Below are positions 4,231 to 63,482 of a DNA stretch of 64,000 bases, one piece after another (position 1 is the first letter of the stretch; each line of letters starts with the position of its first letter). Origin of the DNA: Azospirillaceae bacterium (GTDB lineage: Bacteria; Pseudomonadota; Alphaproteobacteria; Azospirillales; Azospirillaceae). The position numbers and the translations under genes were made by a program. The DNA is taken from assembly GCA_031291675.1 (NCBI GenBank), contig JARLIO010000076.1, forward strand, positions 62,001 to 126,000. Direction: 5' to 3'. The notes under the pieces are model-generated. The model had not been told where the DNA came from. It saw nothing but the letters and a program-made list of their open reading frames with translations, and searched no databases.

Positions 4231-4268
4231 AGAGCCGTTTCCGATCCAACGTGATCGGAAACGGCTCT
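4231..4268. repeat. Perfect 16-bp palindromic hairpin between convergent nosX and modC
   Basis: Arms AGAGCCGTTTCCGATC (4231-4246) and its exact reverse complement (4253-4268) are separated by the six bases CAACGT. It lies between two convergent operons and could act as a bidirectional terminator or mRNA 3' stabiliser, although no long T run follows. The hairpin at 63451-63482 has the same loop-proximal core (TTTC-T/C-GATCCAAC), so this is a dispersed element rather than a private terminator. Confidence 0.7.
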
Positions 4269-15585: not shown

Positions 15586-17631
15586 TCAGTCGGCGGTGAT
15601 CGCCGCCTGACGCTGTTCAACGACACGTTCGGCGAGGCGCCCCGTCAGTTCGGCGAGATGGTCAAAGGTCGAGACGAAGGTTCCAACACCCTGGGTCAGC
15701 GATCGCAACTCGACGATCAGGTCGTGGATCTCCGCCTGCGGCAACTGGACCTTGACCTCGTCCCAGCCGGCCCAGCCCGGCCGGTCGTCATAGCCCAGGA
15801 TCTGGCCGCGGCGGCTGCTGGCCAGTCGCTGCACCCGGCTGGTGAAGTCCTTGGGGACCGCGATGGTGACCGCCAGGATTGGTTCGAGCAGCACCGGCTC
15901 GCATTTCGGCATCCCCTCGGCCATCGCCATCCGTGCCACGGTCTTGAACGCCATTTCGGAACTGTCGACGGCATGGAACTGGCCGCTGGTCAGGGTGACT
16001 TCGATATCGACGACCGGAAATCCCAACGGACCCTGACCCAGATAGTCGCGAACCCCCACCTCGACCGCCGGAATGAACTGGCGAGGCACAGTTCCGCCCA
16101 CGATCTTGTCGATGAAGCTGAAGCCGGTTCCCCGCGGCCGGGGGGCGATCTCGATATGGATGTCGGCAAACTGGCCATGCCCGCCGGACTGGCGTTTGAA
16201 CCGGGCGTGCTGGGCCGCGGGCTTGCGGATGCTTTCCCGGTAGGGCACCTGCGGCGCACGCCCCTTGACCGGCAGGCTGAACTTGTTGCGCAGCCGGTCG
16301 ATGGCAATCTGGAGATGGATATCGCCCTGACCCCAGAGCACGATCTCGCTGCTTTCGGCCCGTTGCTGGGTGCGGAGCGCCGGATCCTCCTCCAACAGCT
16401 TCTGGATCGCCGCGGTCAGCTTGACCTCGTCCGAGCGCTGCTCGGCAACGATGGCCAGTGCGAAGACCGGCTCGGCCGTGTCGGGCCAGATCGGGCTGCG
16501 GCCGGGTGGGCCCTGTTCGGTCACGATATCGCCCGTTGCGATCTTCTCCATGCGCCCCAACGCGACAATGTCGCCGGCCTCGGCCTGGGTCAGTTTCCGG
16601 GGTTCGTATCCCATCATGCGATAGAGGCCGCTGACCCGTTCGCCGCCCAGGATCATGCCGTCGGTCACGGTACCGCGCCAGATCCGGGCGACGCTGATCT
16701 TGCCGCTATGCATGGCGTGGAAGGTCTTGAAGACCTGGGCCAGCACGGCGGAACCGTTGGGCAGACCCATCCGTTCCGCCGCGACCGGCGCCTCGGGGGT
16801 CTCGTGGCGCAGCGCCTTGAGCAGCCGCCGCACACCATTGTCGCTCTCGGCCGAACCCAGAAAGACCGGAACGATCAGATCGGAGGCGAAGTCCTTGCTG
16901 AGCTGGCGGTACAACTCCTCTTTTTCGGGAGCGATATCCTCAAGCAACTGTTCCAGCAGGGCATCGTCGAAATCGGACAGGGCTTCCAGCAGCTCCTGGC
17001 GCGCCTCGTGCTGGTGGTCGTACACCCGGTCGGGAACCGGGACCAGATCGGAAGGGGCCCCGGCCTGATAATGATAGGCGCGCTCGCTCGCCAGATCGAT
17101 ATAACCGCTGATCTGGTCGCCGTCGCCGATCGGAACTTCGCGCAGCACCAGACGCCGGCTCGACAGCGCCTGCAAGGCCGCCAGCACATCGCGGATGCGC
17201 ACCTTGAGGCCGGGGATCAGATCGACCTTGTTGATAAAGATAATGTGCGGAATCGAATAGTCGTCAAGAAATTTGAACAGCGGCCCCAGCGGCAGCAGCT
17301 TGTCGACGGTGGGCTCGACCACGATGACGGCGGCGTCCACGACCATGAGCGCGTTGCGGGTCTCCGCCGAGAGCTCGACAGACCCCGGGCAGTCGAGGAA
17401 ATTCCAGCGGTCACCGAGATATTCGGTGGTTGCCAGGCCGATCTCGACGCTCATCTGACGGGCCTTGGCTTCCGGGGCGGCGACACCGACCGCGCTGCCG
17501 TCACGAACGGTGCCCTTGCGGGTGATCGCGCCGGTCGCCGACAGCAGGCTCTCAAGTAGACTGGTTTTTCCCGACAGATAGGGCCCGACCAATGCGGCGC
17601 AGCGCGGCGCCGATCTTCTCGCATGGGGCAT
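15586..17631 (-). CDS. EF-G-like translational GTPase paralogue
   Basis: 681 residues with the EF-G domain order: GTPase, beta-barrel, then domains III-V (GGHGQFADIHIEI, GVRDYLGQGPLGFPVVDIEVTLTSGQFHAVDSSEMAF). It is clearly EF-G family, but the G domain departs from canonical EF-G. The P-loop is GPYLSGKT (residues 16-23), the switch II stretch has DCPG rather than DTPGH, and the base-recognition motif is NKVD. These are the marks of the EF-G-like paralogues found beside a true FusA in many bacteria. Start ATG 17631 has a strong GGGAGGA upstream; an extension to 17733 was rejected. Its function is not defined. It follows no operon partner. Confidence 0.85.
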   Translation of the reverse strand: MPHARRSAPRCAALVGPYLSGKTSLLESLLSATGAITRKGTVRDGSAVGVAAPEAKARQMSVEIGLATTEYLGDRWNFLDCPGSVELSAETRNALMVVDAAVIVVEPTVDKLLPLGPLFKFLDDYSIPHIIFINKVDLIPGLKVRIRDVLAALQALSSRRLVLREVPIGDGDQISGYIDLASERAYHYQAGAPSDLVPVPDRVYDHQHEARQELLEALSDFDDALLEQLLEDIAPEKEELYRQLSKDFASDLIVPVFLGSAESDNGVRRLLKALRHETPEAPVAAERMGLPNGSAVLAQVFKTFHAMHSGKISVARIWRGTVTDGMILGGERVSGLYRMMGYEPRKLTQAEAGDIVALGRMEKIATGDIVTEQGPPGRSPIWPDTAEPVFALAIVAEQRSDEVKLTAAIQKLLEEDPALRTQQRAESSEIVLWGQGDIHLQIAIDRLRNKFSLPVKGRAPQVPYRESIRKPAAQHARFKRQSGGHGQFADIHIEIAPRPRGTGFSFIDKIVGGTVPRQFIPAVEVGVRDYLGQGPLGFPVVDIEVTLTSGQFHAVDSSEMAFKTVARMAMAEGMPKCEPVLLEPILAVTIAVPKDFTSRVQRLASSRRGQILGYDDRPGWAGWDEVKVQLPQAEIHDLIVELRSLTQGVGTFVSTFDHLAELTGRLAERVVEQRQAAITAD

Positions 17632-18069
17632 GGTTCCTCCCTTTCGCAAACCGGCCTTTCGCAAAGCGATGGCCGTTCGCGCATTTTTGGCCCGCAGCAG
17701 GGTGCTGCGGAGCGTGCTGGAATGGGTCGGCACCTGCCCGACGCGGTGCCGCCGGTCCTGTGAAAGGGTCCTCCCACCGCGCGTCGATGTCTACGGAAAA
17801 CGCGGTGCCGGGGATTCGGCCACAGTGCCGCGGGGCGCGCTGGACAATGGCTTTCGCCGGGCTGCTGCGGGCGCGGCGTCGGCCAACGGCATCGTACAAA
17901 TATTACAAAATCTATTAAATTAATGGAATTATAGAGATTACTTGATGAAGTCATGGAAAAATAGTGATTCTTTTATGTCAAATTCAAGAGTCCATCGATA
18001 TGTTGCCGGACGTGTTTCATCGAATGCGGCGGCAAGCCTGAAATCATGCAATCAGCAGGGGGCAAGGGA
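17632..18069. other. Intergenic region with AT-rich promoter-like stretch
   Basis: No convincing gene; the open frames here are GC-rich shadow reading. From about 17890 to 18000 the sequence is strongly AT-rich (runs such as CAAATATTACAAAATC and TAAATTAATGGAATTATAG), unlike its surroundings. It separates the EF-G-like gene and the cache-domain gene and could hold divergent promoters, but no specific box was assigned. Confidence 0.4.
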
Positions 18070-18555
18070 ATGACGAATTACTGGCATCGCGCGGTGGTCT
18101 GGCACCTGATGTTGCTTTTTGTCATGGCCGGCCTCGCCTTGGTGCCGTTGGCCGGGCGTGCCGAGGCGGCGGCGTCGCGGGATGAGGTGAAAGCCCTGAC
18201 CCTCAAAGCGGCCGAGATTGTCGCGACCCGGAGCCTTGATGAGGCGCGGCGGATCTTCCACAACGACACCGCCTTCAAGCACGACGAGATCTATGTCAAT
18301 GTCATTGATCTTAACGGTGTTTGGTTGGTCTATCCGCCCCGTCCGGCCGCGGAAGGCCAGAGCGTCATCAATGTCAAGGATGCCGACGGCAAGGCTCTGG
18401 TGCAGGAAATCATCAGGATTGCCCGCGAGCAGGGCGAGGGCTGGGTCGAGTATCGTTGGTTCAATCCTGTGTCAAATCGGATCGAACAGAAGATTACCTT
18501 CGTTGAACGGGTTGCTCACAAGGATATGATCACATATATTGGAATATACAAGTAG
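18070..18555 (+). CDS. Secreted single cache-domain protein
   Basis: 161 residues. A hydrophobic signal peptide or anchor spans residues 8-30 and ends GRAEAAA. The remainder reads as one cache (sCache_2) domain: TLKAAEIVATRSLDEARRIF, VYPPRPAAEGQSVINVKDADGKALVQEII and GWVEYRWFNPVSNRIEQKITFVE. There is no output domain, so it is a periplasmic ligand-binding module acting alone or with a separate partner. ATG 18070 is preceded by AGGGGG; an in-frame ATG at 18046 is an alternative. It converges with the DUF1097 gene. The ligand is unknown. Confidence 0.75.
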   Translation: MTNYWHRAVVWHLMLLFVMAGLALVPLAGRAEAAASRDEVKALTLKAAEIVATRSLDEARRIFHNDTAFKHDEIYVNVIDLNGVWLVYPPRPAAEGQSVINVKDADGKALVQEIIRIAREQGEGWVEYRWFNPVSNRIEQKITFVERVAHKDMITYIGIYK

Positions 18556-18624: not shown

Positions 18625-19197
18625 TCAGGCACGCCGTTTGGCCGGGAGCTGGGCGTACACCGTGATGATCCCCAACAGAATCCCGAAGACGGCCATCGCG
18701 ACGGTCCAGATTGCGGCGACGATCGGCAGGAAGGCATCCGGGCCGAAATGCGGGAAGCTGTTGGTGAAATAGATCCCGAGCGCCATCGAGATTCCGTTGA
18801 AGAAAGGCAGGGAACCTTCCTGGAAGGCATGCGACCAGGACATCGAATGGACCATGAAGCCCACACCGATGAAGAGCGCCGCGGCAATCCCGAGATCCCC
18901 GGGCGTCAGCAGGCTCGGGACGAAGCTGAACACCGGGATGATGGCCAGGGAAACACCGGTGATGACGGCCGCATAGCCGAAACTCTCGAGAATCATCGGC
19001 ACGACCTGGAGCTTGGCGCCAAGCGCAAAATACTCCGCCCACACGATGAACGAACACCACAGGGCGAAATTGAATTTCCCCAGCCATAGCCCGAAGGGCA
19101 GGGAAAGGACAACGGTCACCGCGACCGCCAACCACAGGGGCACCCTGTTGATCACGACGTCGTGTGGCAGGTCCAGGGCCGGGTTCTGACTGCTCAT
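18625..19197 (-). CDS. DUF1097 integral membrane protein
   Basis: 190 residues with about five hydrophobic helices (WLAVAVTVVLSLPFGLWLG, FALWCSFIVWAEYFALGA and FLPIVAAIWTVAMAVFGILLGII among them), matching the DUF1097 family in size and pattern. Start ATG 19197 has GGGAG about 8 bases upstream; a longer form to 19302 was rejected. It is the third gene of the minus-strand run UPF0261, TIM barrel, DUF1097, with a 149-bp gap after the TIM-barrel gene. A transport or channel role for the pathway is inference only. Confidence 0.8.
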   Translation of the reverse strand: MSSQNPALDLPHDVVINRVPLWLAVAVTVVLSLPFGLWLGKFNFALWCSFIVWAEYFALGAKLQVVPMILESFGYAAVITGVSLAIIPVFSFVPSLLTPGDLGIAAALFIGVGFMVHSMSWSHAFQEGSLPFFNGISMALGIYFTNSFPHFGPDAFLPIVAAIWTVAMAVFGILLGIITVYAQLPAKRRA

Positions 19198-19346
19198 TTT
19201 TGTTTCTCCCTCTTTGCGGATTTGTTCTTGTTGGCGCATGCGCGGCCGTCTTGGCCAGAAAGCGCGGGGGCCGTGCCAGCCGTCGCCGCGTTGCGGCAAC
19301 ATGGCGACGGCTCCCGTTCAGGTGCGGTTCTGTCGAACTTTGGCGA

Positions 19347-20177
19347 TCACCGATGGATTTCTTTGAACCGGCGAGTTTGTTCTGTCAGCGCCCGTTCGGT
19401 TGGCAGCCGCTCCATGCTCGACGCGCCGTAGAAGCCATGGCAGTTCGGGCATGCCTTTAGGATGTCGTTGGCGTCATCCGGTTCGGAGATCGGTCCGCCG
19501 TGACACAGCACGATGATGTCCTTGCGGATCTTCAAGGCCGCGTCGGTCCAGGCATTGATCAGGTCGGGGCATTCCGCCAGCTTGCGTGAGGTTTGCGAGC
19601 CGATCGCGCCGCCGGTAGTCAGGCCCATATGGCAGACGATGATGTCGGCGCCGGCCTTGGCCATCGCCTGCGCCTGGTCGGGATCGAAGACATAGGGGGT
19701 TGTCAGCATCCCCAATTGGTGCGCTTTGCCGATCATGTCGACTTCGAGGCCGTAGCTCATGCCGGTCTCTTCAAGATTGGCGCGGAAAACGCCATCGATC
19801 AGGCCAACCGTTGGGAAGTTCTGGACACCGGCAAATCCGATATCCGACAATTTGCGCAGGAACGGCTCCATCAGGACGAAGGGATCGGTGCCATTGACGC
19901 CGGCCAGGACCGGGGTGTGCTTGACAACCGGCAGAACCTCGCTGGCCATCTCGACCACGATGTCGTTGGCGTTGCCATAGGCCAGCAGGCCCGCCAGCGA
20001 GCCCCGGCCCGCCATGCGATAGCGGCCGGAATTATAGATCACGATCAAATCGATGCCGCCGGCCTCCTCGCATTTGGCCGACAGGCCGGTACCGGCGCCA
20101 CCGCCAACGATGGGCTGGCCGGCGGCGATCATACCGCGGAATTTGTCAAGCAGGGCTTCGCGGGTAAATCTGGCCAT
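19347..20177 (-). CDS. PEP-hydrolase-type (PF09370-like) TIM-barrel protein
   Basis: 276 residues. Family motifs run in order: [16 protein letters not shown] (25-40), GVNGTDPF (93-100), [13 protein letters not shown] (117-129), CHMGLTTGG (182-190), [12 protein letters not shown], and a C-terminal [17 protein letters not shown]. Members of this family have been annotated as phosphoenolpyruvate hydrolase-like, but the reaction is not established in my knowledge. It starts 16 bp after the UPF0261 gene, in the same order as the two domains of plant Tm-1. Two further copies of the fold lie nearby (21657-22409 and the N-terminus of the activator at 22494-24386). Confidence 0.85.
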
Positions 20178-20193
20178 GACAGAAACCTCCTGT

Positions 20194-21399
20194 TCAGATG
20201 AGTTCGAGGAAATTGGCGACCAGAACCTGGCTGAAGGCCGGGTCGTTAAGATGCTCCGGCCGACGTATCAGGCGCCGTTCTGCCGTCTGGTGAATGGTTT
20301 GTTCCAGGGCGTCGAACAGGGCCCGGTCGGCCTCGGGATCGTGGAAGGCCTGGCCCGGCTGATCGAGCATCGACACGCCCCCTTCGGGGATCACGATGCG
20401 AACCGGACCTTCCATGCGGTTGACACGTTCGCCGATCCAACGCCCCATTTGCGTGTTCTCTTCCGCAGTGGTCCGCATCAGGGTCACCTGGGGGTTGTGC
20501 GGGTAGAACCGGCGACCGCGGTAACGGTCCGGTACCGTTTCGGGGGCGGCAAAATTGACCATGTCGAGCGCGCCGCAGGACAGAACGTAGGGGATCCGGG
20601 TCCGGATGATCGCGCCGAAGCGGTCGGCGGTGCAGGCCAGCACGCCGCCCATCAGGAAATCGCAGACCTCCGTCGGGGAGATATCGATCACACCAGCGAG
20701 CAGACGGGAATCCGCCAGTTTTTCCATCGACTGACCGCCGGTGCCGGTGGCATGAAACACGAGGCAATCATAGCGCTCCTCAAGCGCCGCGGTGACGCCC
20801 TGGACGCAGGGTGTTGTGACGCCGAACATCGTCAAGCCGAGCGCGGGCTTGGTGGCAAGGCTCGGGGGACGGTGGTTCTTGATCATCCCGGCCAGGGCAT
20901 GAGCGGCGTTGGACAGCACCTGTTCGGAAATCCGATTGATGCCGGCGACGTCGGTCACCGAATACATCATGCAGATATCCGCGGGCCCGACATAGGGGCG
21001 GACATCACCCGACGCCATCGTCGAGACCATCACCTTGGGAACACCGATTGGCAGGTGGCGCATGGCCGGGGTCGCGAGGGCGGTACCGCCTGACCCCGCG
21101 GCCGAAATGATGCCGCCGAGGTCGGTTCGCGTCGCGATGAACCGTTCGAAGGCGATCGCCATCGCGGCGACGGCCGAACCGCGGTCCCCGGTAAAGACCG
21201 CGGCGCGGCCATCGGGGTGGTGATTGGCAACCTCGTGGGCTGAAATGTCGGTGATCGTTGGGCTATCGCTGGTGCCGAGATCGACGGTCACGGTTTTGAG
21301 ATCAAGACGACGAAGGCAGTCCGCGATGAAGGTCAGTTCACGGCCTTTGGTGTCGAATGTTCCGGCGACATAGGCCGCGCCGGCATCCTGGTTTGTCAT
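20194..21399 (-). CDS. UPF0261 / Tm-1-like ATP-binding domain protein
   Basis: 401 residues of the UPF0261 family, related to the N-terminal half of the tomato Tm-1 antiviral protein. Conserved stretches are [100 protein letters not shown] and the C-terminal [21 protein letters not shown]. Start ATG 21399 has GGGAG upstream; the frame continues to 21459 without a good site. It heads the minus-strand operon that a sigma-54 promoter at 21514-21529 would transcribe. Its substrate is unknown. Confidence 0.88.
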
Positions 21400-21513
21400 G
21401 CGTTTTCTCCCGTGCGATCTGTTCTTGCTTGCAGCCACGCCGGCGTGGCGGGGCGTCATCTTTTTGGTCTTCAGGGCGCAAAAGTTGGTCTTGAGGGCGC
21501 AAAGCGCGTCATT

Positions 21514-21529
21514 GCATCGATCGTGCCAT
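21514..21529 (-). promoter_or_regulatory. Sigma-54 (RpoN) promoter for the UPF0261 operon
   Basis: On the minus strand the bases read TGGCACG, four bases (ATCG), then ATGCA. This has the invariant -24 GG and -12 GC at the canonical spacing of ten bases and only one mismatch to the TGGCACG-N4-TTGC consensus. It points toward the UPF0261 start about 115 bp downstream. A sigma-54 activator is encoded 1 kb away. Confidence 0.75.
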
Positions 21530-21578
21530 TGGCAGCGGCGCGGGAAACGGTGTTCAGTCGCCTTTGGGATTGGGGAAA

Positions 21579-21617
21579 AATCGGTAATTTCCTCGAAATG
21601 ACACGAAATTACCGATT
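21579..21617. promoter_or_regulatory. 13-bp inverted repeat, probable activator-binding (UAS) site
   Basis: AATCGGTAATTTC (21579-21591) and its exact reverse complement (21605-21617) are separated by 13 bases. The centre is about 95 bp upstream of the predicted transcription start of the sigma-54 promoter, a normal enhancer distance. It is also only 40 bp before the divergent gene at 21657. The likely binder is the Fis-type HTH of the activator at 22494-24386. Confidence 0.65.
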
Positions 21618-21656
21618 GTTACCCATTCGGCCGTGTGATCGGGAGGGGGCGGAGCC

Positions 21657-22409
21657 ATGGGACACCGGTTTGCCAAGCGGGGGTCCGCTGCCGGAACGGG
21701 GCGTCGGTTTCACGGCGTGATCGTCGACCGCATTGATGAGGGCGCGGATCGCCCCGGCGAAGATTTCGCGCTGTTATGCCCGCACTATGCCGGCATGGAC
21801 GCCGCGTTGGCCGACCTGATCGGCTCTCTTCCGGTCGGCGACGCCAATGGCGCGATCCTGGCGGCGATCCCGTCCTGTCGGCCCGGGCCGGGGCTTTATG
21901 CCGGTATTCTGGCGGCCGATCCGTTCCGGCCCGGACCCATGCTGCTTGCCGCCTTGAAGGGATGTGGCGTGCGGGCGGTTGTCAACCTGCCGACCGTGGC
22001 GATGCTCGGGCACAGTCTGGGCCTGGCGTTGAGCCATGCCGGCATCGATTATGCCGCCGAACTCCGAACCCTGGCGCACGCGGCGACTCTCGGTCTGGAT
22101 GCCATGGCCGTGGTGTCAACGGCGGCGCAAGCCGCGGCTGCGGCGGCGGTGGGCATTGGCGCGATCATGGTCCATCCGGGGCCGGCGGCGCGCGACCCCG
22201 AGGTCAATCGATCGCGCGTTGCCGCGATCGCCGCCATTGTCGCGGCGGTCCGCGCCATTGATCCGGGTCTTTGCGTCTTGGTGTTTCGGCATCCGGGATT
22301 CGACGGGATCCTTGACCCGGTTGGTGATCAGGCGGACGGCGTCGTCGACTGGGCGATCCGGCCCTATGACGGCGTGCTGGCGCCCGGGTCGACAGCGAAA
22401 TCATTCTGA
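21657..22409 (+). CDS. Divergent PEP-hydrolase-type TIM-barrel paralogue
   Basis: 250 residues, Ala-rich. The middle aligns well with the neighbouring PF09370-like protein: GILAADPF against GVNGTDPF, then GCGVRAVVNLPTVAMLGHSLG against [19 protein letters not shown], followed by a matching L..AGIDYAAEL...A..LG helix and IMVHPG against VCHMGL. It lacks the N-terminal [11 protein letters not shown] loop and the C-terminal GASSMERLP segment, so it may have lost activity. ATG 21657 has GGGAGGG about 9 bases upstream. It is divergent from the operon and convergent with the activator gene. The family call is mine from eye alignment. Confidence 0.7.
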   Translation: MGHRFAKRGSAAGTGRRFHGVIVDRIDEGADRPGEDFALLCPHYAGMDAALADLIGSLPVGDANGAILAAIPSCRPGPGLYAGILAADPFRPGPMLLAALKGCGVRAVVNLPTVAMLGHSLGLALSHAGIDYAAELRTLAHAATLGLDAMAVVSTAAQAAAAAAVGIGAIMVHPGPAARDPEVNRSRVAAIAAIVAAVRAIDPGLCVLVFRHPGFDGILDPVGDQADGVVDWAIRPYDGVLAPGSTAKSF

Positions 22410-22493: not shown

Positions 22494-24386
22494 TCACTCG
22501 AGGCCGAAGCGTCGCATCTTGTTGTAAAGGGTCTTGCGCGACAGGCCGAGATAGCGGGCGGTCTCGCCGCGCTTGAACCGGTGCCGCCGCAAGCCGTCGA
22601 GGATCCAGTCGCGTTCAGAACCTGCGTCGGCGGCCACCGGCGGTGCGGCAACCGGTATCGTGGGCATTGCGAGCCGCGCTGTTCCACCGCCGGGGCTGAT
22701 GTTCGGCGTTGCGGCATGGGGATCGGGTGGATCGAGCAGCCGCGACAGATCACCGGCGCCGATCACGTCGGTGTCGGACAGGATGGCGGCCTGCTGAATC
22801 ACGTTGCGCAGCTCCCGGACATTTCCCGGCCAGCGGTGGCTCATCAGGATCTGATAGGCGGCGTTGTCGATAACCTTTGGCCGTGCCTGGCGCTGTGTCG
22901 CCAGGGTGGCGAGGAAGTTCTGGGCCAGCAGGGGGATATCCTCGATCCGCTCGGCAAGGCTGGGGAGCCGTATTTCCAGTCGGTTGAGACGGTAGAATAG
23001 ATCTTCGCGAAATCGGCCGTTGGCGACCATGGATCGAAGATCGCGGTTGGTCGCACAGACAATCCGCGTGTCGAGATGATGGGCCTGATTGCTGCCCAGG
23101 CGTTCAAAGCTTCCGGATTCCAGGACGCGCAACAATTTGCCCTGCAGCGACAGCTCCAGATCACCGATCTCGTCCAGAAACAAGGTGCCGCCATTGGCCT
23201 CTTCGAACCGGCCGATCCGCGCCCGGGTTGCGCCGGTGAATGCGCCGCGCTCGAAGCCGAACAGCTCGCTTTCGAGCAGGTCGTGGGGAATTGCGGCGCA
23301 ATTGACAGCGACGATGGCTCGTTCCCGCCGGCAACTGCCGCGGTGAAGGGCCTGTGCCACCAATTCCTTGCCGGTGCCGCTGGCGCCCTGAATCAAGACC
23401 GCCAGATCGCTATCGGCCAGGCGCTCGATCATCCGCACCACCTGGGCCATCACCGGGGAGCGCCCGATCAGGCCGAACCGCCTGCCATCACCGAGCCACT
23501 CCGTCTCGATCGCCTCGACCTTCCGGGTCAGGCCGGCAATCGCCTTGAACGCCGATGCCGCATCGCACACCGCGGTTTCCAGGGGCAGGCGGTCGATCGT
23601 CGAACTGGCGATATAACCGTCGGCGCGGCCGACCCGGCAGACATTCGCGGCATCCTGCGGGGTCGCGATTGGTCCACCTTCGACAAAACAGAGGATCCCG
23701 GCGCGGCGCCGGCGCAGCTCGGTGAACATCGCGCGGGCTTCGGCGGCGGCGGCCGCTATATCCAGGGTCGCGGGTTCACCACTGATACCGCCCGACGTCC
23801 AGCCGAAATTGAGGCAGATGATGTCGGCGCCGGCGGCCGCCATATCGGTCGCTTCGGCGATCCGGCGGACATAGCCGACGGCCAGCAGGCCGCGGCGGTG
23901 GGCTTCGGCAATCAGGGCGACCTCACGCGGCCAGCCCAGGCCACGCCGCGCCAGGGCGGCACCGGTACCGGGGTCCAGCAGGCTTGTCGTCGGGAAATTG
24001 GCGACGCCGTGGAAACCCCATGATTGGATGCGCCCCAGCAGGTCCGGGATCGCGGTTCGCGGGTCGAGCGTCGAGGCGCCGAACAGGACCGGAACATCGA
24101 CGCGATCAAGGATCTCCGCCCGGGCAAATCCGGCGACGAACGCATTGGTTTCGTGGATCGGGACCATACAGGCGACCGACGGCGCCCCCATCACCCGGAC
24201 CCGTCCGGCGCTGAGCGCCAGAATGAAATCCGCGCCGCCCCGCACCGCCGATTGCGCCACCAAACCCGCCCCGATCGCGGCGCCGATCAGAAAACCGGCC
24301 GCGTCGTCGGCACGGCGACGCCACGCGGCCAGCGCCTGTCCCGGGTCGAGCGGTGCCGTCACCGGCGTTGCGTCGAGAGGCTTCAT
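22494..24386 (-). CDS. Sigma-54-dependent activator with a PEP-hydrolase-type TIM-barrel sensor domain
   Basis: 630 residues in three parts. Residues 20-275 form a PF09370-like TIM barrel (GVANFPTTSLLDPG, LNFGWTSGG, VEGGPIATPQDAA and ASSTIDRLPLE align with the neighbouring enzyme). Residues 305-540 are an AAA+ domain with Walker A GASGTGKE (334-341), the sigma-54 contact loop GAFTGA (381-386) and Walker B TLFLDEIGD (401-409). Residues 591-627 are a Fis-type helix-turn-helix. The protein should activate RpoN promoters when the barrel senses a metabolite related to the pathway. The obvious target is the promoter and inverted repeat at 21514-21617. A GTG start at 24416 is possible; ATG 24386 is preferred. 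Neither has a strong ribosome-binding site. Confidence 0.9.
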   Translation of the reverse strand: MKPLDATPVTAPLDPGQALAAWRRRADDAAGFLIGAAIGAGLVAQSAVRGGADFILALSAGRVRVMGAPSVACMVPIHETNAFVAGFARAEILDRVDVPVLFGASTLDPRTAIPDLLGRIQSWGFHGVANFPTTSLLDPGTGAALARRGLGWPREVALIAEAHRRGLLAVGYVRRIAEATDMAAAGADIICLNFGWTSGGISGEPATLDIAAAAAEARAMFTELRRRRAGILCFVEGGPIATPQDAANVCRVGRADGYIASSTIDRLPLETAVCDAASAFKAIAGLTRKVEAIETEWLGDGRRFGLIGRSPVMAQVVRMIERLADSDLAVLIQGASGTGKELVAQALHRGSCRRERAIVAVNCAAIPHDLLESELFGFERGAFTGATRARIGRFEEANGGTLFLDEIGDLELSLQGKLLRVLESGSFERLGSNQAHHLDTRIVCATNRDLRSMVANGRFREDLFYRLNRLEIRLPSLAERIEDIPLLAQNFLATLATQRQARPKVIDNAAYQILMSHRWPGNVRELRNVIQQAAILSDTDVIGAGDLSRLLDPPDPHAATPNISPGGGTARLAMPTIPVAAPPVAADAGSERDWILDGLRRHRFKRGETARYLGLSRKTLYNKMRRFGLE

Positions 24387-24474
24387 GGGTAACCGACCGC
24401 GCGTCGCTGCCGTCACATCACGACAGCTTATCCGAATTCGATCCGCCTTGGCCAGCAGCGCGCCAACGGGGCAG

Positions 24475-30946: not shown

Positions 30947-30981
30947 CCAACCTGCGATGAGTCTTTCTCATCGCAGGTTGG
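30947..30981. terminator. Stem-loop terminator after the ABC importer operon
   Basis: CCAACCTGCGATGAG (30947-30961) pairs perfectly with its complement (30967-30981) around loop TCTTT. The core GATGAG-tttt-CTCATC is shared with the stem-loop at 63344-63378, so this may be a repeated terminator type in this genome. Confidence 0.7.
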
Positions 30982-44041: not shown

Positions 44042-45271
44042 ATGCGGTGGTCAAGGACGGTGGTTGCGGCCGGGTTGGGTGTGGCCCTTCGTGTGGCGCT
44101 CGTGGGGCTGGGGACGGCGCCGTCCCCAGCCATGGCGGACGAAGCCGTCAAGATTGGCGAAATCAACAGCTACACCGGCCTGCCGGCCTTCACGTTGCCT
44201 TATCGCAATGGCTGGCAAATGGCGGTTGAGGAGATCAATGAAGCGGGCGGCGTTCTCGGCGGCCGGCCAATCGAGGTGGTGTCCCGCGACGACGATGGCA
44301 AGCCCGAGGACGCCGTGCGCGCCGCGACCGAGTTGCTGGACAACGAGAAGGTTGTCGCCCTGGCGGGCACCTATTTCTCTCACATCGGTCTGGCGGTTGC
44401 TGACTTCGCGCTGCATCACAAAATCCTGTTCATCGCATCCGAGCCGTTGACCGACGCCCTGACCTGGGACAAGGGCAACCGCTATACCTTCCGGCTGCGG
44501 CCCAATACCTATACCCAGGCCGCGATGCTGGTCGAGGAAGCGGCCAAGCTGCCGGCCCGGCGCTGGGCGACGGTCGCGCCCAACTATGAATATGGCGAAT
44601 CCGCTGTCGCTTCGTTCAAGCAGTTGCTGAAGGCCAAACGGCCGGATGTCGAGTTCGTCGCTGAGCAATGGCCGGTTCAGGGCCGGATCGATGCCGGCCC
44701 GGTCGTCCAGGCCCTGGCCGCCGCCAAACCGGATGCCATCTTCAATGTCACCTTCGGTGCCGATCTGGCGAAATTCGTTCGCGAAGGATCGATCCGCGGT
44801 CTGTTTGATGATCGCAGCGTCGTCAGCCTGTTGACCGCCGAACCGGAATATCTCGACCCGTTGAAGGCCGAAGCCCCGGAAGGCTGGATTGTCACCGGCT
44901 ATCCCTGGGACCAGATCCAGACACCCGCGCACCAGACCTTTCTCGATGCCTATCGCAAGAAGTTCGGCGAGGCGCCCCGGCTTGGCTCCGTGGTCGGTTA
45001 CACGACGTTCAAGGCCATCGCCGCGGCGATCAACAAGGCCGGATCGACCGACAGCGACAAGCTGGCGGAGGCGATGCGCGGCCTCAGCGTCGCCAGCCCG
45101 TTCGGCGATATCACCTTCCGTCCCGGCGATCATCAGTCGACCATGGGCGCCTTCGTCGGCAGGCTGGCCGTCAAAGACGGTCACGGCGTCATGGTCGATT
45201 GGCGCTATGACGATGGCGCCGCCTATCTGCCGCCCGACGACGTCGCGGCAGCCCGCCGGCCGAAGGATTGA
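44042..45271 (+). CDS. livK: Branched-chain-amino-acid-type ABC periplasmic binding protein
   Basis: 409 residues with a signal peptide ending SPAMA about residue 32. The mature part starts DEAVKIGEINSYTG and carries the LivK/periplasmic-binding 6 pattern: INEAGGVLGGRPIEVVSRDDDGKPEDAVRAATELLDNEKVVALAGTYFS, then VAPNYEYGESAVASFKQLL. ATG 44042 has AAGGAG 7 bases upstream; the longer frame from 43943 overlaps coaA and was rejected. The ligand may be leucine-like amino acids, urea or another small molecule. Confidence 0.9.
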   Translation: MRWSRTVVAAGLGVALRVALVGLGTAPSPAMADEAVKIGEINSYTGLPAFTLPYRNGWQMAVEEINEAGGVLGGRPIEVVSRDDDGKPEDAVRAATELLDNEKVVALAGTYFSHIGLAVADFALHHKILFIASEPLTDALTWDKGNRYTFRLRPNTYTQAAMLVEEAAKLPARRWATVAPNYEYGESAVASFKQLLKAKRPDVEFVAEQWPVQGRIDAGPVVQALAAAKPDAIFNVTFGADLAKFVREGSIRGLFDDRSVVSLLTAEPEYLDPLKAEAPEGWIVTGYPWDQIQTPAHQTFLDAYRKKFGEAPRLGSVVGYTTFKAIAAAINKAGSTDSDKLAEAMRGLSVASPFGDITFRPGDHQSTMGAFVGRLAVKDGHGVMVDWRYDDGAAYLPPDDVAAARRPKD

Positions 45272-50657: not shown

Positions 50658-50745
50658 ACCGTTCGCCACCATCGCCGTGCGTCCCGGTATCGGCGATGGT
50701 GGCCCTTTGCCTTGCTTGCCCCTTCATAGTTGGAAGGACCCTGCC

Positions 50746-63450: not shown

Positions 63451-63482
63451 GCTGTTTCTGATCCAACCTGATCAGAAACAGC
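63451..63482. repeat. Palindromic hairpin related to the one at 4231-4268
   Basis: GCTGTTTCTGATC (63451-63463) and its exact complement (63470-63482) around CAACCT. The same TTTC-Y-GATCCAAC core occurs at 4239-4250. It lies directly at the 3' end of the Sel1-repeat gene, where it may terminate that transcript. Confidence 0.65.

Follow-up and report, generated by a model that had tools for sequence, protein, structure and literature searches.

Genes and predicted elements of the locus

The window analyzed here is a 64,000-nucleotide (64-kb) stretch of DNA from an Azospirillaceae bacterium, and it carries an operon of three genes on the minus strand. The first gene (20194..21399) encodes a UPF0261 protein equivalent to the N-terminal half of Tm-1-like proteins (Pfam PF06792/PF23189), with 3wry (Tm-1) and 9mpy as its relatives of solved structure in the PDB. 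Its start codon is more likely the ATG at 21399 than the ATG at 21459 given in the list of open reading frames, because a ribosome-site-like GGGAG precedes the former and homology begins there. The second gene (19347..20177) encodes a PEP_hydrolase-family protein (PF09370, which we take to be one family with TBST; PDB relative 2p10), and the third (18625..19302) encodes a small hydrophobic protein that has no match in Pfam or NCBIfam and also occurs in loci L015 and L016. Past the 3' end of the operon lie genes for an EF-G-like protein (15586-17733) and a short Cache-domain protein (18046-18555).

On the plus strand, a divergent gene (21657..22409) encodes a truncated PEP_hydrolase-like barrel, which matches PF09370 in part and, by alignment, is without the GGG and GGPI motifs of the enzyme. 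A relative of this gene is found near the regulator gene in most loci, and a modulating effect of the partial barrel on the regulator is our guess. The regulator itself is encoded on the minus strand at 22494..24416; domain matches and alignment reveal an N-terminal PEP_hydrolase barrel, a sigma-54 AAA+ domain with the GAFTGA loop as well as Walker A and B, and a Fis-type helix-turn-helix (HTH), which together are the marks of a sigma-54 enhancer-binding protein. Its barrel retains much of the enzyme core with some substitutions (for example, the histidine before GGPI is replaced by glutamate). This pattern points to a ligand-sensing role for a relative of the operon's enzyme. Given that the enzyme and the sensor barrel are diverged relatives, the ligand is probably a substrate or product of the former.

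The predicted -24/-12 (sigma-54) promoter box of the operon, TGGCACGATCGATGCA, occupies 21513..21528 and is read on the minus strand from 21528 to 21513 as TGGCACG-N4-ATGCA, with GG at -24, GC at -12, and 10 bp between them. The sequence-only reading had called this promoter textbook; its letters, strand, and GG-N10-GC spacing are correct, but the adjective is generous for a box that is one base off the TGGCAC-N5-TTGC consensus (ATGC in place of TTGC at -12). The position of the box would place the transcription start of the operon at about 21502. When up to one mismatch is allowed, TGGCACGATCGATGCA is the only place in the window that matches TGGCAC-N5-TTGCA; since window shuffles expect 1.25 such matches, the box taken alone is not significant, and it is the comparison across loci that makes it so. 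In the whole genome, TGGCACN5TTGCW with at most one mismatch was matched 180 times versus 204 times for a reversed control, so the consensus is no commoner than its control. The rpoN gene is encoded in all 15 genomes searched, among them the window's own, and they cover both forms of the regulator described below. Immediately downstream of the expected start, the predicted 5' leader contains a 19-bp direct repeat, TTGGTCTTCAGGGCGCAAA, with copies at 21464-21482 and 21485-21503 (similarity, 95%; 21 bp apart); the Pleomorphomonas relative has a shorter leader. An RNA structure in the leader was considered and rejected, its folding being no better than that of shuffles (z +0.99).

Between the two divergent starts lies a perfect 13-bp inverted repeat (21579..21617), the arms of which, AATCGGTAATTTC and GAAATTACCGATT, are located at 21579-21591 and 21605-21617 and are separated by a 13-bp spacer without any mismatch. 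The center of the repeat (21598) is separated from the expected operon start, which lies downstream of it, by about 96 bp, and the repeat itself ends 40 bp short of the ATG of the divergent gene (21657). The repeat and both of its distances (the first put at about 95 bp) had thus been described accurately from the letters. A count of perfect repeats whose arms reach 13 bp or more and whose spacers do not exceed 30 bp gives six places in the window against a shuffle average of 0.11; the repeat exceeds chance, yet such repeats are no rarity here. The five others are found at 4231-4268, 30947-30981, 44106-44131, 50665-50703, and 63451-63482. The core GGTAATTTC-N13-GAAATTACC is present at a single place in the 5.87-Mb genome, even when three mismatches are allowed.

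Comparison with related loci places this repeat inside a longer predicted enhancer array (21572..21624) of four half-sites, two facing two: GGGGA (21572-21576, outer) and CGGTA (21582-21586, inner) on the plus strand, and CGGTA (21610-21614, inner) and GGGTA (21620-21624, outer) on the minus strand. The 13-bp arms contain only the inner pair. The arm had been proposed as the conserved unit, which did not hold, for related loci share GGGTA-type half-sites and not AATCGGTAATTTC. The array of the window is less canonical than most, with CGGTA at both inner positions and GGGGA at one outer position. GGGTAN5SGGTAA (GGGTANNNNNSGGTAA) has one perfect match in the window's own genome, which is this predicted enhancer, and 26 matches when one mismatch is allowed, one of which is the opposite arm.

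Conservation of the box and the array with the regulator

Ten loci have a regulator that keeps GAFTGA, namely, the window, Pleomorphomonas oryzae, an Ancalomicrobiaceae metagenome-assembled genome, Ancylobacter gelatini, and genomes G032, G606, G672, G729, G734, and G740. All ten carry a -24/-12 box upstream of the operon with a score of at least 14 on an ad hoc scale (maximum, 15) that was built on the sigma-54 consensus. All ten also carry half-sites upstream of the box, mostly in 10-bp steps, at about -96/-86/-76/-66 (forward) and -68/-58/-48 (reverse) from the start of the box. The sequence-only proposal of a sigma-54 promoter with an upstream activator site is therefore backed by these ten equivalent pairs of box and half-sites. 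In Ancylobacter, the element precedes a liv-type transporter operon that includes the UPF0261 and PEP_hydrolase genes.

The motif GGGTA-N5-GGGTA, its second box being allowed to differ by up to one base, was found in 14 of the 15 target regions, which come from 14 genomes; 1,000 dinucleotide shuffles gave a mean of 0.062 regions and at most 2. The spacer length of 5 is distinctive, as there were 17 in-target matches at this spacer and 2 in 222 kb elsewhere, compared with at most 3 in-target matches at the other spacers from 0 to 20 (2 each at 4 and 6, one at 14, and three at 15) and up to 4 for ATGGG, the motif reversed as a control (spacers 4 and 5). The spacer and shuffle counts exclude L072, L080, and nine of the ten genomes of genus g11 as near copies. 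Additional sites of this type lie away from the UPF0261 operon in L078 (16969) and L112 (1208 and 17628), and the regulon may be larger in these genomes.

The presence of the site agrees with that of the regulator in all 19 genomes with named UPF0261 loci. Four of them encode the regulator at E values up to 1e-80, and among the remaining 15 the site occurs at one locus only, that of Labrenzia. At this locus the site was known before the regulator: only afterwards did a diverged query reveal a full-length regulator with an eroded AAA+ domain beside it; the same query gave no full-length match in the other 14 genomes, in which the site search covered the fetched 4 to 11 kb around UPF0261. In G472 the site is located just outside locus L024. 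G082 provides the only target region without the site, and its recognition helix reads STRTLYNK in place of SRKTLYNK.

Relatives with an eroded AAA+ domain

The eroded set comprises genus g11 (10 genomes), G082, G472, G643, G811, and G786. The GAFTGA loop is absent from all 15 of these regulators, from that of Labrenzia, and from the seven regulators of the held-out set described below. In the eroded regulators Walker A is partly kept and Walker B is mostly lost, and the HTH retains SRKTL(Y/F)N(K/R), G082 excepted. No -24/-12 box scoring at least 14 of 15 was found in 16 target regions, drawn from 15 of the genomes with an eroded regulator. The best boxes are those of L079/L080 (TGGCACGGATCTTCC; 13.0 and 12.5), which are without GC at -12, and that of L077 (TGGCTTGGCCTTTGCG; 12.5), in which GG-N10-GC is present and which may be a weak -24/-12 box. 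Since these best scores (12.5 to 13) fall below the 14 of the GAFTGA loci, a good -24/-12 box was rejected for the eroded loci.

The operator GGGTA-N5-GGGTA usually remains in the eroded loci (it is missing in G082, locus L076) and faces the operon as TACCC-N5-TACCC, with TTCCC in L078. A TTG follows 20 bp after the site in all ten g11 genomes; with g11 counted as one representative, a -35-like TTG at 19 to 20 bp is present in four of five lineages, and L079 has CTG instead. The -10-like hexamers of these relatives are variable. An unrooted tree of the regulators separates the intact from the eroded forms (support, 95/93). In a tree of the barrels rooted on the enzymes, which used 16 of the 26 regulators, the 8 intact rows form a clade (87/90) and the eroded ones an unresolved fan; erosion of the AAA+ domain may have happened more than once.

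The site and the TTG spacing were followed in a held-out set. When the whole class was searched with one of the eroded regulators as the query, 9 of 385 genomes gave a match: Labrenzia, G822 (taken as the same genome as G082 because of identical match values), and seven new ones. The strict site is present in all seven held-out loci, for which larger regions were used, with 13 sites in total; 11 were examined, and two that look coding (L110 13504 and L116 7776) were left out. A TTG at 19 to 20 bp accompanies 5 of the 11 sites and is missing from the other 6. The five are exactly the sites within 500 bp of a livH match of more than 50% identity (5/5 versus 0/6; shuffle expectation for these five, 0.15, with 0 of 20,000 shuffles as high), a split that was made after the TTG result was known; when a weak livH-like match (25%) beside L112 1208 is counted, 5 of 6 proximal sites have the TTG. 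The regulators of the held-out set are similar to each other, so that the cases are not independent, and two of the five TTG-bearing sites (L115 and L116) had been looked at before as L103 and L106. Such a livH-proximal TTG is as expected for a housekeeping promoter before the transporter operon with the regulator bound in a fixed position, but the -10 element is loose and the genomes share ancestry.

Proposed activation, alternatives, and relation to known systems

Comparison of the loci thus shows the predicted box, the array, their conservation with a GAFTGA-bearing regulator, and a link of that regulator to the array, and with high confidence we propose the following mode of activation. 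The regulator would bind the GGGTA half-site array at 21572-21624 and sense a ligand through its PEP_hydrolase-type barrel; DNA looping would bring the bound regulator to the sigma-54 polymerase, which the AAA+ domain would open at 21513-21528, and the operon of UPF0261, PEP_hydrolase, and small-protein genes would be switched on. Array binding, looping, and opening of sigma-54 polymerase by the AAA+ domain are established for this class of proteins, and for the window we infer them. Array binding probably also affects the divergent gene, because the array lies only 33 to 85 bp before its start codon; the sequence-only reading had suggested that the activator might repress this gene, a possibility for which the short distance is the one argument.

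Three other explanations were weighed. The array could belong to some other DNA-binding protein, likewise conserved at the operon, with the regulator acting from elsewhere. What ties the array to the regulator is co-occurrence and HTH conservation only, and a Fis-type HTH does not usually have direct repeats as its site. However, site and regulator agree in all 19 genomes, all seven held-out loci have the site, the site is gone where the recognition helix differs (G082), and the regulator alone has a DNA-binding domain among the five locus proteins mapped across relatives; we therefore consider a different protein unlikely.

Transcription of the operon mainly by the housekeeping polymerase, with the -24/-12 match as a chance occurrence or a relic, would agree with the one such match expected by chance in the window and with the housekeeping-type promoters that relatives with an eroded AAA+ domain seem to use. 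It is nevertheless very improbable, given that all ten GAFTGA loci have the box, that the regulator retains GAFTGA and Walker A, and that a strict scan of 21400-21700 found no sigma-70-like match. The perfect 13-bp arms, and the five other comparable repeats in the window, might also point to an RNA hairpin, that is, a terminator or leader structure. However, the divergent starts flank the repeat, transcription of the operon is expected to begin downstream of it, and relatives preserve the half-sites and their spacing rather than a hairpin, which leaves this explanation with hardly any likelihood.

Activation of a sigma-54 promoter by the array-bound regulator agrees with what is known of NtrC-family enhancer-binding proteins (NtrC, NifA, FleQ, and PspF), which share the AAA+ domain with GAFTGA and Walker A, the Fis-type HTH, and a site upstream of a -24/-12 box; the predicted element of the window is itself of a known kind, an ordinary sigma-54 enhancer and promoter. 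Unlike these proteins, the regulator of the window has an N-terminal PEP_hydrolase-type barrel as putative sensor, and its predicted operator consists of GGGTA half-sites 10 bp apart. NtrC of Rhodobacter capsulatus and Caulobacter as well as TyrR, DhaR, and HupR are reported to be without GAFTGA and to act with sigma-70 (PMC3162934, PMC10274813). The eroded relatives likewise are without GAFTGA; the difference is that here the same operator and operon occur with both forms of the regulator, and the use of sigma-70 is predicted. As for the operon, the UPF0261 protein matches the structures of plant Tm-1, and Tm-1-like proteins are described as joining UPF0261 and a TIM-barrel (TBST) domain (PMC5028733), whereas here two separate bacterial proteins are encoded in one operon. 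Among the matches listed, mainly from the open-access literature, there was no paper on a PEP_hydrolase-type family of sigma-54 regulators and none on one operator in both sigma settings.

We lean toward the view that one regulator family, one operator (GGGTA-N5-GGGTA), and one operon have moved between polymerase types while the DNA site was kept: lineages with GAFTGA would use the -24/-12 box with a distant array, and eroded lineages a housekeeping-type promoter with its -35 element fixed 19 to 20 bp from the site. Against this view speak the CTG of L079, the missing site in L076/G082, and the six held-out sites that have no TTG at 19 to 20 bp. A single operator and operon that can be compared in both sigma settings in many genera would offer a way to see how an enhancer-dependent promoter becomes an ordinary one. 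The inducer of the regulator may in turn provide a handle on the bacterial role of UPF0261 and PEP_hydrolase proteins; with a sensor related to the enzyme of the operon, the regulator should have an inducer that points to the pathway.
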